A DNA stretch of 64,000 nt from Steinernema hermaphroditum. Its lineage: Eukaryota > Nematoda > Chromadorea > Rhabditida > Steinernematidae. The notes beneath the pieces are model-generated. The model saw only the letters and a program-made list of their open reading frames with translations, had not been told where the DNA came from and searched no databases. Of this stretch, positions 44,457-49,736 are shown one piece after another. Location: positions 1,240,001 to 1,304,000 of the forward strand of contig CM059622.1 in NCBI GenBank assembly GCA_030435675.1, written 5' to 3'. Position 1 is the first letter of the stretch, and each line of letters begins with the position of its first letter. Both the position numbers and the translations under genes were made by a program.

Positions 44457-44807
44457 TTAGAACAGCATAACCACAATAGCAAATTTAAAAGTACATTTTT
44501 CTCGAAATCCACCCGGTATGGGCCGCTGATTTTTTGCGCGATTACTACTCTTGGCAAGACCTATTAGTACGCAAAGTTTCAGCCAAATCGGCGGGGGCCA
44601 TGTTTGACACTTCCCTTGTGAGTTGACAATTGAGGCGGGGAGTGCGTTCCAATCATTGATTACTCGGCTGGAGAAGAATCGGGATTCGATCGGGCGCGCT
44701 GCTGGTTTCGTAAGCGTGTAGCCGTGGTTTCTTGATCTTCGCTGGTTTCGGGAGAAGAAGTCCGTCACTGGGATTCTTGCATGACCGTGAATCATCTTGT
44801 ATACCAT
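44457..44807 (-). pseudogene. LINE reverse-transcriptase C-terminal fragment
   Basis: The frame reads MVYKMIHG, then RNQRRSRNHGYTL, then FFSSRVINDWNALPASIV. This is the recurrent tail of non-LTR retrotransposon reverse transcriptases (F..R..N.WN.LP). The downstream part crosses into unrelated repeat sequence. Confidence 0.7.
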
Positions 44808-45046
44808 AACTTATGTGACATATAAGCAGTAATATCACGAACATAGACCGGATGGTTGGGAGGACGAAGTGTCCGACACGCAAAAGGGGCCCCAGCGTCA
44901 AACCCATGGGGAACCACCTAGAACCGTAGAATCGGCGCGATTTGGGCCTGGCTGTGAATCTGGAAGAGGCAGTCAAAAGCTCTTCCACATTTGTAGAATT
45001 CTTGCACTGTACTGTACTGTACACTTGTAGTCACATGCTACGCATC

Positions 45047-45367
45047 CTAGACAATGGTTCCATTTGACTGCCGTTCATGGCCATGTCCGTAACAGTTATT
45101 GCGGCGTTCGAAACTTCTTGCACGCAAATTGACCGTCACAATGTCTCTCCACCTTGAGCTGAGAGATTCTCGTTTGCTGTTCATATAGCACTCCCTTAGC
45201 TCTATCTTACCCATACCTCTGCTCATCCATAACCGACGACATCAGTAGAAACCACTATGAATAAGATAAAGTGGTCGAAAATTGGACCCAAACCAATTTT
45301 TGACTCTAAAGCCCGCATATTCCACTAACAAGGAATCCGGATGTTGCCCAAAAAATCGGCTGATCTT
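45047..45367. repeat. spacer with a dispersed-repeat copy
   Basis: 45140-45290 resembles 55900-56140 (TTTGCTGTTCATA, then GACATCAG.AGAAACCACTA) and part of 60150-60270. The last 8 bases are the left target duplication of the Mutator-like element. Confidence 0.5.
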
Positions 45368-45627
45368 GGCAGCATGAACTTAGCGCGGATTTTTTTAGCG
45401 CGCGGAACTTAGCGCGCAGACCTTAGCGCGCGCGGAACATAGCGCGCGGAACTTAGCGCGCGAAATTTAGCGCGCCGAACTTAGCGCGCACGGAACTTAG
45501 CGCGGCGAACTTAGCGCGGCGAACTTAGCGCGCAAGGAACTTAGCGCGTGGAACTTAGCGCGTGGAACTTAGCGCGCCGAACTTTGGATCTCAGCACATT
45601 TTAAGTCACGCTATGATGTAAAACGAG
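45368..45627 (+). repeat. left terminal inverted repeat with subterminal motif array
   Basis: About 14 copies of a 12-16-bp unit around GAACTTAGCGCGC are followed by a unique part, GATCTCAGCACATTTTAAGT. The right end carries about 12 copies. Such arrays often bind the transposase; that role is inferred. Confidence 0.85.
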
Positions 45628-46010
45628 GTCGCACGTGGTCTTTCATTGATACGGCGATTGTCCACTCACTCTCTCGGTGTGTTTGGCGCCCCTTTTAGCA
45701 CATCTACTGCAGCAGTCCTTTGAATAACAAACAACACGCCCTCACAAGGATCGTTAGCCTCAGCGCTGTGTGTTTTGAATCAACAATAAGACATACAGAT
45801 AGACGAACCTTCCCGTTTTCGACGATGATCATCGCCATGTCGACGACAGCGCGCTTTTTATCGTCGTCATTGGCGCCCTTTTTGGCACATCCCCTTTGAA
45901 TAACAAACAACACGCCCTCACGAGGATCGTCAGCCTCAGCGCTGTGAGTCACATTTGATCAAAATCTTCTTGGCGGTAACTTGTGTTTTCTTTTAGTCTA
46001 TTGTCAAAAA

Positions 46011-48382
46011 ATGATGGAAATTGAACGCGTGAAGTCTAACTGTCGTTCTCGGAAGGCGCTTTTGGGAGCTGTCCCTGTTCCTATCAACCTTGAAGAAGTT
46101 CGCGAAAGTTTCACGGCGCCGAGATGGAACGACCGCTATTACATGTTCATCGCATTAAGAACGGCTAGAAAGAAACGCGCAAAAGAAGTCGACGACGCTA
46201 AAAAAGTCACCGAAGCATGTAAACTTCGAATTGAAAAAGCTGAGATTCTGGTAACTTCTCGAAAGATAACATCAGAAAAGATATTTTAGCGTCTTGAATC
46301 TACTCGTCCGCCAGCTATTCCCTTACCTCCACCGCCAATCTTCCTCAATGAACGGCTGGTTGGATTATTTCAGAGGTAGTGCTCTCAACAAAACTCTCTT
46401 GAAATTAAGCTCGTTTTTCAGAATCCATACTTTGGCATGTGGTGCAGGAAGTAGCGATTCAGACGTTGACGTTCAAGAAATTCAAGGCGTTCAAGACGAA
46501 GTTCTATTCTATGAATCGTCCACAAAAAGAACGCGCACAACTGAAAATGTGGGCACTGGAATCTTTTCATTTGACGATTTTTCTTACCGCGTCGAACGGA
46601 AACTGAAGAAACGGCCTGAGTACTATTCGTGCCGGTGCATTGATCGCCATTGCAAGGGACGGGCGATCATCAACACCACAACCAAAAAAGGTTACATACA
46701 ACATGACCACAATCATCCACGAAATTATACCGACCTAGAGGTATGTGAATCTCGAAGTTTTTATTAGAATCTTAATTCACACTTCACTATAAAGGTTTAG
46801 ATCAGAAAGTTCCGCGAAAAGTTTGAGCAAGAGGCACGGCAAGCCGCCACCAATCCAGCAACGTCGGATCGGTCTGTGAATCGGAACGTGATTACGGAAC
46901 TGCGCAGTGATCTGTCCGACGAAGCAATTGCGAACATCCCCTCCAGCTCTTCATTTACGCGTTTTTTCCAGAAAAGACGCCAAAAAATCAGATCTTGCCT
47001 AGGTGATGCAGAGGCGAATATTGGTGATGCAAACCTTTTTGAAGTTCCCGACCGTTTTCGGAATTTTACCACAGAGTCGACTTCAGGTAAAATATACGAT
47101 ATATGTATATTGTTAACAGTTTGCCTCTAATTTCAGAACAGTTTCTCATTGCAGACATTAACATTGCTGACAGAGGCCTCCGCGCATCTGTATTTATGTC
47201 TTCCTTTGGATTGCGTTTGCTGGAAAAGTACCGTACTATAGCGTTTGATGGTACCTTCTCCATCGTACCTTCACACATGCTGCAACTATTCACGGTGCAC
47301 GCATTTATCGATCCTACCGCTTCGTTACCTGTGGCATATGCTATTATGTCGTCAAAAACTACTGAACTCTATGAGTGAGTCAATTTTGAGCAAAAAAAAA
47401 CATTACATTTCTTATTATTGCAGAATGGTCTTCAGAGAAATCGATGGATGTCTTCATCACGAGAAGCGTCCAACTCGTTCAATGTCGGATTTTGAGCGGG
47501 CAGCATTTACAGCAGCCAAGAACGTCTGGCCAGCAATCGACATAAGCTTATGCTCCTTTCATTTGGGACAAAGTCTACACCGGTTTATACAAAAAGAGCC
47601 GACTCTTCTGCAGCGCTATGCTAATGCTGACGACCGCGCTTCCATGCGATCCCTTCATTCGTTGACGTTTGTTCCAGTACAACACGTTTATTCCTATTTT
47701 TGCCAATTGTGGGATGCAACATCAGGAATGGACACCTTGTTTCATTACTTTTTTAAGACGTACATCACAGCTCAAGGCGTGCCGAATGTACCAATCCGCC
47801 TTGGGCGACCAGGGTCTCATTCAGACCGTAATGAATTCACTGTTACCATAGATATACGCTTTTGCTTTTTAGGTTATGTTCGATCAGTACTTGTTCCCCA
47901 GTCCAGTCAGGGAGCACACTTTTTACCCGTGGAATGGAATTTAACGCAGCGATTATTGCAAAAGGACCCGAGGACCACCAATTCAATTGAAGCGTGGCAC
48001 TCGATTATAAACACCTACCTTACGCCGAATCCGACAATGACCAACCTATTAGAATTGATCAAAAACGAGGAAAAAAAGTCGTCAGGTGTATCGCGAGTTC
48101 ACTATAAATCCCGCGAAGGTATGTTTTTGAAGTGTAATTGAGGGTTCTTTAAAGGTTCTTATTTAAAATCATTTTCATCGCTCCAAAAACGCACGTAACT
48201 ACTACGCAAGAACTAATTAGCACACGCAATTGTATGCTTTATAGGGTCTTCGGCAGCTAGGGCCTCGACAAGAACGTTTACGCCATGAAGAACAGTTAGC
48301 AGCCCTCGTAAATGGTTTCTCGTTGAACGAGCTGGCGACTGACTACCTTCGCAAGGTTTCGTATCATCTCGCCTCCCCATGA
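46011..48382 (+). CDS. MULE transposase with FLYWCH-type zinc finger
   Basis: Exons 46011-46250, 46290-46375, 46422-46740, 46801-47086, 47137-47374 and 47424-48118 join in frame; a last exon from about 48246 to the stop at 48382 is likely, but the phase does not fit the obvious donor. The FLYWCH-like finger is at about residues 170-212 (YYSCRCIDRHCKGRAI, then HDHNH). The catalytic triad of the Mutator fold is visible: D348 in AFDGTF, D412 in SDFERAAF followed by C433-x2-H436, and E579 in TTNSIEAWHS. It would cut and paste the element by binding its terminal repeats. The phase problem at the 3' end could be a missed splice or a small frameshift, so activity is unproven. Confidence 0.85.
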
Positions 48383-48861
48383 CGCATCAAGACTAAGGAT
48401 CTGCGACTCACGACGCCTTTACTTGTACATTTCCACATATTTTTGAATTCCTAAAAAAAACTGAAAACGTTAAAAAAAATATTTTTGCAAATATATATAT
48501 TTTTAAATTCTTGAAAAAAAATTGAAAACGTTAAAAAAAGCAAAAAATAGACTTCGAAAAACATAAAAGAAAAAAAAAATAAACCCCTTTGATTGTTATC
48601 CATTTATCTGTGTACATAAATAAAAGAATTTAATTGAAGCGTTTGATATGATATCAGGTTAAACAATTTCCTGAGAATTATTGCATTTATGACGTGCATC
48701 GATTTCGTGTCCACTTTTCGAGTGAACTAATTTGTTGTTCTGGAACGTCTCCATCAGGGCTGAGCAAGTCTCGAGAAATTCTCCAGATTTCCAAGAGTTT
48801 TTGGTCATAACAAGAAAGACTTAAATCGTGTGGGTTTTCAGAAACGATCTTGCACAGCGCA

Positions 48862-49376
48862 ATGGCAGAAGTCGACGATGTGTTCGTGGTCGATCGCGCC
48901 GAGTACAAGTGCTGCTGGGGATATATGCACGTCAAGACAGGAGCTGTGGCGGTCGCCTTACTCGGCCTCGCAGTCATCATCATCAGGTTCTTCTACCTCA
49001 CCTGGATTCTATTCTTTGCATCGTACCCTATCTACTACTTCGAGGTATTCGAATACATCTCACATCCATTCTTGACCCTCTTCGTGCTCATCGCCATCGT
49101 GGGCATCTTCCGCCGGGAGAAGTATTATCTGTATGTTGACCACGTGTTTCATTTTTGTACTGAAACTACCCTTTCAGACTCCCGCTCCTCTTCGCTCTGA
49201 TGTGGATCGCCCTGTTCTGTTTTTTCACAGCGCTCTTCCGGCTTCTGACTGACTCCAGAGACGCGCTCACTTCGGAGCCGACCGTTCCTTTCCTCGCGAT
49301 TTTCCTGATCGCGTTCTACACGGTCATTGCACTCAATGTTTTTTTTAAATCTTATCTTTACCTGAGGGACTTGTAA
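48862..49376 (+). CDS. four-span LAPTM-like membrane protein carried inside the MULE
   Basis: Two exons, 48862-49130 and 49178-49376, join in frame to 155 aa. After a short acidic N-terminus, YKCCWGYMHVKTGA matches the Cys/His start of LAPTM4/5-like lysosomal and endosomal four-span proteins. Four hydrophobic segments follow at about residues 26-46, 50-82, 90-108 and 125-143; between spans 3 and 4 is a polar loop with TDSRDAL. The frame is open, the 47-nt intron has a normal donor (GTATGT) and acceptor (CTTTCAG), and the stop lies 106 bp before the right terminal repeat. Codon use looks like host genes. An acceptor (GGTTTTCAG) lies just upstream, so a 5' exon or trans-splicing is possible. 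It is probably a captured host gene. Confidence 0.78.
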
Positions 49377-49482
49377 ATTACTACTAATAAAATGTGACAA
49401 CTAGCCAACCAAACGGTAGACAAGAAAAGGGCAACTACGGAGGTAGACAGTGCACAGCGGGTGGCCATAGACGGCATCGGTT

Positions 49483-49728
49483 CTCGTCTTACATCATAGC
49501 GTGACTTAAAATGTGCTGAGATCCAGAGTTCGGCGCGCTAAGTTCCACGCGCTAAGTTCCTTGCGCGCTAAGTTCGGCGCGCTAAGTTCGCCGCGCTAAG
49601 TTCCGTGCGCGCTAAGTTCGGCGCGCTAAATTTCGCGCGCTAAGTTCCGCGCGCTATGTTCCGCGCGCGCTAAGGTCTGCGCGCTAAGTTCCGCGCGCTA
49701 AAAAAATCCGCGCTAAGTTCATGCTGCC
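49483..49728 (-). repeat. right terminal inverted repeat of the MULE
   Basis: The inverse of 45368-45627, with about 12 copies of the GCGCGCTAAGTTC unit and the same unique inner part ACTTAAAATGTGCTGAGATC. Confidence 0.87.
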
Positions 49729-49736
49729 CTGATCTT

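Follow-up and report, generated by a model that had tools for sequence, protein, structure and literature searches.

A recently mobile Mutator-like element of Steinernema hermaphroditum that probably carries a captured host gene for a four-span membrane protein

Here, we describe a transposon of the nematode Steinernema hermaphroditum that appears to have taken a gene from its host and to carry it from place to place. The element lies in a 64,000-nucleotide stretch of the genome (GCA_030435675.1, contig CM059622.1, positions 1,240,001-1,304,000 of the forward strand), referred to below as the window; coordinates are those of the window unless C1 to C5 is given. It occupies positions 45368-49728 (4.36 kb) and is of the Mutator-like element (MULE) type, with terminal inverted repeats (TIRs) and an 8-bp target site duplication (TSD) on both sides. 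Within these ends are a multi-exon transposase gene and, between it and the right TIR, on the same strand, a second spliced gene, which we call the cargo. We are confident, short of certainty, that we are dealing with a Phantom/Muta-like MULE of recent mobility, an ancestor of which captured a host gene for a four-span membrane protein as genomic DNA, and that the cargo has travelled along since.

Gene capture by MULEs has so far been a plant story. In the literature we searched, and in the parts of those papers that were available, the animal cases are either fragments, as in Turmoil-1, or, as in Tm1, host-like motifs within elements that have no transposase. Here, a transposase, the ends and an open, intron-bearing gene of apparent host origin move as one recent unit, while older relics in the same genome appear to document both the capture and its later trimming. 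The features that define the ends are as follows.

45360-45367, no strand: left TSD, CTGATCTT, perfect 8 bp
45368-45628, plus strand: left TIR, end sequence GGCAGCATGAACTTAGCGCGG, from the TIR alignment
45395-45584, no strand: subterminal tandem array in the left TIR, 13.1 copies of the 14-bp unit TTAGCGCGCGGAAC
49483-49728, minus strand: right TIR, from the TIR alignment
49729-49736, no strand: right TSD, CTGATCTT, perfect 8 bp

Read inward, both ends of the element start with GGCAGCATGAACTTAGCGCGGA. The TIRs are about 250 bp long, with 243 of 261 aligned columns identical between left and right and 15 gapped; one ungapped pair of arms extends over 208 nt at 98% complementarity, and the 14-bp unit makes up most of the TIR. 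The perfect duplication and long inverted repeats of the original prediction, which was made from the window alone, are borne out. A search of the 90.6-Mb genome with the left end returned at least 22 matches (all genome match counts given here are lower bounds), eight of which pair up as the ends of four full copies: the one in the window and those at C2:4334821-4339183, C5:6149956-6154318 and C5:16118972-16123333. Their TSDs (CTGATCTT, CTTCCCAG, GAGAAAAA and GATTATTG) are all different, and each is a perfect 8 bp. When the four copies are aligned, six columns vary, four by substitution and two by the length of a run of A, and the 1-kb flanks are unrelated, with a single 16-bp chance match in 12 comparisons. 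From the different perfect TSDs, the unrelated flanks and the small number of variable columns, we conclude that the unit transposed recently. The whole unit, cargo included, has transposed: each of the three additional copies holds the cargo, which is base-for-base identical in all four and is therefore mobile with the element, as had been proposed; the outcome named as refuting this, a cargo missing from every other copy, did not occur. An animal host is likewise supported: the genome has at least 128 matches to the chemoreceptor family PF10317, which is specific to nematodes, against matches in none of 14 control genomes. Perfect 8-bp duplications in four of four copies, together with long TIRs, agree with the definition of the MULE superfamily (TSDs of 8-11 bp and long TIRs), and TIRs with short subterminal tandem repeats (here 14 bp × 13.1) are a trait of the Phantom/Muta group.

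The cargo and its borders are made up of the following features.

48755-48832, plus strand: end of an unrelated dispersed repeat (CAGGGCTG...), 78-82% identical to three loci (on C3, C1 and C4), directly adjoining the captured DNA at its left border
48835-48841, plus strand: splice acceptor TTTTCAG, upstream of the cargo ATG, at the left capture border
48862-49130, plus strand: cargo exon 1, from homology to the C1 gene and an open frame
49131-49177, plus strand: cargo intron, GTATGT...TTTCAG, at the position of intron 1 of the C1 gene
49178-49376, plus strand: cargo exon 2, stop codon TAA, from homology to the C1 gene and an open frame
49386-49391, plus strand: AATAAA directly past the cargo stop, a putative poly(A) signal

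Outside the element, the cargo has its best homologue in a gene on the minus strand at C1:14242228-14242851 (the C1 gene), with a 191-residue product. The two match at the DNA level over 334 of 405 and 67 of 84 identical bases, the position of intron 1 is common to both, and the homology begins exactly at TTTTCAG, 27 bases upstream of the ATG. Because the C1 homologue has the same intron and the same splice acceptor at its 5′ side, the cargo is, judged by its sequence, a captured host gene. The dispersed repeat at the left border is presumably hAT-like, going by its CAGGG end. Around the C1 gene, we found no element sequence or ends except for the match to the cargo itself. The prediction of a complete host gene holds for the reading frame, which runs through 155 codons free of stops, and fails for the gene as a whole: relative to the C1 product, the cargo has no intron 2, is about 24-30 residues short in the region of the third luminal part and is missing the C-terminal 12 residues. 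The cargo thus appears to be a shortened form of its parent, complete only as an unbroken reading frame.

The claim of a four-span LAPTM-like protein also stands in part. Four hydropathy peaks are present in the cargo and the C1 parent alike, and the LAPTM label falls away. Neither the cargo nor the C1 product has a Pfam match above the cut-off, and we rejected an identity with LAPTM4 (Mtp, PF03821), as both proteins are without a match to that profile; an Mtp search of the genome gave a single match, whose 16.5 bits are below the cut-off of 25.2. A distant paralogue (L028), 31% identical over 84 residues, matches DUF7807 with 60.5 bits and Mtp with 15.3 bits, against the same cut-off of 25.2. 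As far as this evidence goes, the cargo would encode a four-span membrane protein that is a DUF7807-like relative. Sub-threshold Pfam matches, including MerC (14.8 bits, cut-off 27.6), were disregarded, and the one match in a sequence search of the PDB with the cargo (E 0.68) was taken as chance.

The history of the capture can be followed in three diverged derivatives of the element on C2 (L013, L012 and L014). In L013, a fragment of the transposase N-terminus is followed by the end of cargo exon 1 and the start of intron 1, a C1-like part, the 3′ region of the element and the right TIR. The C1-like part matches the C1 gene at 85% over 193 columns and runs through intron 2, so that L013 retains the second intron of the parent and the loop segment, both of which are missing from the active copies. 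In L012, the final 36 nt of the cargo are left, the early stop being where it is in the active copies, and no cargo match was found in L014. Two of the three old derivatives therefore have cargo remains, one of them with the intron that the active copies lost. Given the 193-column match through intron 2, the history is most simply explained by a single capture of genomic DNA with both introns, before L013 split off, which was trimmed later.

The transposase gene is described by a sequence-based model, in which exon borders follow from GT-AG introns and an open frame.

46011-46250, 46290-46375, 46422-46740, 46801-47086, 47137-47374 and 47424-48118, plus strand: transposase exons 1-6
Near 46630-46721, plus strand: FLYWCH-like finger, a sub-threshold Pfam match
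48071-48077, plus strand: run of A, seven in the window and eight in the other three copies
48245-48382, plus strand: putative last transposase exon, with a stop codon, whose frame is not joined by the modelled reading

The modelled introns measure 39, 46, 60, 50, 49 and 126 bases, and the modelled product has 617 residues in the C5 copy. It matches PF10551 (MULE) with 52.8 bits (cut-off 27.6) and PF04500 (FLYWCH) with 22.0 bits, under the cut-off of 23.6 (E 1.9e-4); a FLYWCH finger is not found in every Phantom/Muta member. The motifs FDGTF, SDFE and SIEAWH lie within one reading in the four copies, and we take them to be the catalytic D-D-E motifs of MULEs, with their codons at 47247 (D), 47488 (D) and 47989 (E). 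The multi-exon transposase with three catalytic residues is thus recovered as predicted. Its autonomy is less clear. The reading from 46011 to 48118 stays open beyond the third catalytic motif, but the frame of the catalytic exon stops shortly after the A run and reaches the putative C-terminal exon in none of the four copies. The break may reflect an early end of the product, another splice or a misread homopolymer, and the difference in A-run length is possibly a sequencing error, a real mutation or a site of frameshifting. A homologous C-terminal segment is present in three of five relatives examined, and in one relative (L044) it lies in a different frame from the preceding match. Since the modelled frame misses the last exon, the transposase is at most putatively complete and the element putatively autonomous, although the unit has clearly been moved.

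Exon-level matches to the transposase number at least 107 in the genome. No cargo match was found at the five transposase relatives examined (C3:7018k, C2:3361k, C3:6462k, C2:7958k and C4:5583k), and genome-wide searches with the cargo likewise place none there. Two MULE relatives (L046 627-3635 and L045 1-2702) have long inverted repeats of other sequence and no match to the cargo. A search for relatives of the transposase on viral contigs gave five pattern matches, none of which was confirmed.

Put together, the capture would have begun at the splice acceptor ahead of the ATG and reached into the last exon of the host gene. Since then, the cargo would have kept its place, with the transposase on one side and the right TIR on the other, and moved with the element; the now-active lineage would have lost the second intron together with the luminal segment next to it, as well as the C-terminal tail, but retained an open, spliceable frame. 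Movement would be by cut-and-paste, using the transposase of the element or that of a related MULE. Cargo RNA would derive from transcription of the element and be processed at the captured TTTTCAG acceptor, which we propose serves trans-splicing of the cargo, and at the AATAAA at 49386, to yield a shortened four-span protein whose frame would be maintained by some selection. A search with the SL1 RNA family found no match in this genome and none in 14 control genomes either, and is thus uninformative on trans-splicing.

How far selection has kept the frame is the point on which the most serious alternative turns. The captured gene could be a passenger, useless to element and host alike, with a frame left open by luck and multiplied from one recent master copy; we give this somewhat less than an even chance. 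The four copies come from one recent source, so a single lucky frame would be enough, and of the three old derivatives, L013 has a cargo broken by stops and L014 has no cargo. A precedent is Turmoil-1 of Caenorhabditis elegans, whose transduplicated fragments are described, in the portion of the paper available, as not under purifying selection (PMC2572040). In a simulation with substitutions alone, frames remained open in 22, 17 and 11% of cases at 49, 60 and 75 changes, which luck could supply, but with insertions and deletions (indels) added, at a rough rate taken from 10 matches (14 gaps to 148 mismatches), the joint chance of an open frame fell to 0.010, 0.004 and 0.001, i.e. 1% or less. 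The splice sites, the start and the poly(A)-like signal are, moreover, all retained. The comparison with the chromosomal paralogue that had been suggested gives, over 155 codons of cargo and C1 gene, a nonsynonymous divergence (dN) of 0.178, a synonymous divergence (dS) of 0.531 and a dN/dS of 0.33 (bootstrap 0.21-0.52), with no bootstrap value at or above 1. The low chance of an open frame under drift favours a frame kept by selection, short of proof, and it is from DNA alone that we infer both expression of the cargo and selection on it.

Several points weigh against our interpretation. The pairwise dN/dS includes the constraint on the host gene itself; if all amino-acid changes are placed on the cargo branch with half of dS, the ratio rises to about 0.67, with a bootstrap limit of about 1. 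The four copies are too similar for a test of selection among themselves, and the 148 mismatches and 14 gaps behind the drift estimate come from 10 matches that are partly overlapping or coding. L013 may go back to an independent capture by a related element. In the 66 bp common to the cargo, the C1 gene and L013, the unique changes number nine, five and four, respectively, and from the nine in the cargo against five in the C1 gene it follows that the cargo changes more quickly than its parent. The whole analysis, finally, was made from DNA sequence.

A more ambitious extension of the capture model is that the cargo works as an accessory gene, selected for the benefit of the element, either by way of its protein or by way of an RNA that acts as a self tag. 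We put this forward tentatively and regard it as rather unlikely. In its protein form, the product would be a shorter version of the host protein, possibly a dominant one. In its RNA form, the identical runs of 17-27 bases that the first ~140 coding bases (48862-49001) share with the C1 gene (L023) would let small RNAs aimed at the element also strike the host gene. Silent sites are also unusually similar there, and synonymous change is at its lowest: it affects 7 of 33 sites in codons 1-50 and 35 of 77 in the rest (Fisher p 0.019), while amino-acid change affects 4 of 117 and 52 of 238, respectively (p 1.7e-6). The low level of change at the start of the cargo could result from constraint on the protein, from late gene conversion or from a benefit related to silencing.

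It is improbable that the capture took place in another nematode and the element entered recently by horizontal transfer, which would make the C1 gene an orthologue of the donor rather than the donor. The four copies are near-identical, the genome search found no intermediate full copies, and the dS of 0.53 between cargo and C1 gene is large. Nevertheless, the genome also has older, diverged derivatives of this element, two with cargo remains, and in the shared 66 bp, L013 is nearer to the local C1 gene (9 differences) than to the cargo (13). We consider it very improbable that the four-span gene is native to the element, with the C1 gene as a domesticated copy; nothing speaks directly for this direction, and the C1 gene has an additional intron and tail, distant homologues elsewhere (E 2.6e-6 and 6.1e-4; 31% over 84 residues) and no element ends found near it, while none of the five other transposase relatives examined has a cargo match. 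An artefact of assembly or annotation is scarcely credible: two of the six variable columns are A-run length changes, a common sequencing error, but the four copies lie at unrelated sites with exact TSDs.

The known systems closest to this element each share a part of its make-up; the comparisons that follow are limited to the portions of the cited papers that were available. Phantom/Muta1-type animal MULEs have, like the element described here, a multi-exon DDE MULE transposase, an 8-bp TSD, repeat-built TIRs and few near-identical full copies (PMC5225508, PMC6446971). In Muta1 of Aedes, the TSD is 8 or 9 bp, each TIR consists of a short end motif and about nine copies of a 12- to 15-bp subterminal repeat, and the copies are near-identical (PMC5225508); the Phantom group has TSDs of 8-10 bp and one or two open reading frames (PMC6446971). 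The likeness is one of features, and the available text describes Muta1 with a transposase only, whereas our element holds a captured four-span gene (PMC5225508).

By analogy, the nearest nematode case is the Tm1 Mutator/Foldback family of root-knot nematodes, which likewise has a MULE transposase and foldback-like TIRs with ~14-bp repeats, has a FLYWCH domain, to which our element gives a sub-threshold match, and whose non-autonomous members carry host-like sequence (PMC3169594). Tm1 differs in its 9-bp TSD and in keeping the transposase and the host-like histone-hairpin motif in separate elements; those with the motif are described, in the text available, as having no obvious coding potential, and Tm1 as inactive (PMC3169594). 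Turmoil-1 is also a nematode DNA transposon with host coding sequence and an intron, taken by transduplication, but it is a Harbinger rather than a MULE and holds fragments of 205 and 131 bp inside its TIRs, with a broken 5′ splice site; as noted above, they are said not to be under selection (PMC2572040). Among plant MULEs, KI-MULEs and others with ULP1-type or second open reading frames have an extra, probably host-derived gene, several of them beside the transposase (PMC2528002, PMC6446971). Unlike our element, these are plant elements with a protease domain and no membrane protein in the accounts available, and the KI-MULE gene is opposite to the transposase (PMC2528002). Pack-MULEs share captured host DNA between MULE ends and differ in having lost the transposase and in carrying fragments (PMC6446971, PMC13317346); the element described here has the captured host sequence and retains a transposase. 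Our literature search, thin on subscription journals, found no case of an open captured gene in an animal MULE. Two testable questions are opened: does an animal DNA transposon keep a cellular gene by selection, and does a captured splice acceptor allow expression of a promoterless gene inside a nematode transposon?

Two minor observations concern the surroundings and the wider family. An open reading frame in the window at 44457-44810 (minus strand, 117 residues) resembles the C-terminus of a long interspersed nuclear element (LINE) by eye and is without a Pfam match. Elsewhere in the genome, four foldback-like pairs of inverted repeats (L015, L016, L017 and L018) are about 71% similar to the TIR units of the element, and two of them have short transposase-like pieces, which suggests a related older family or miniature derivatives of such a family.

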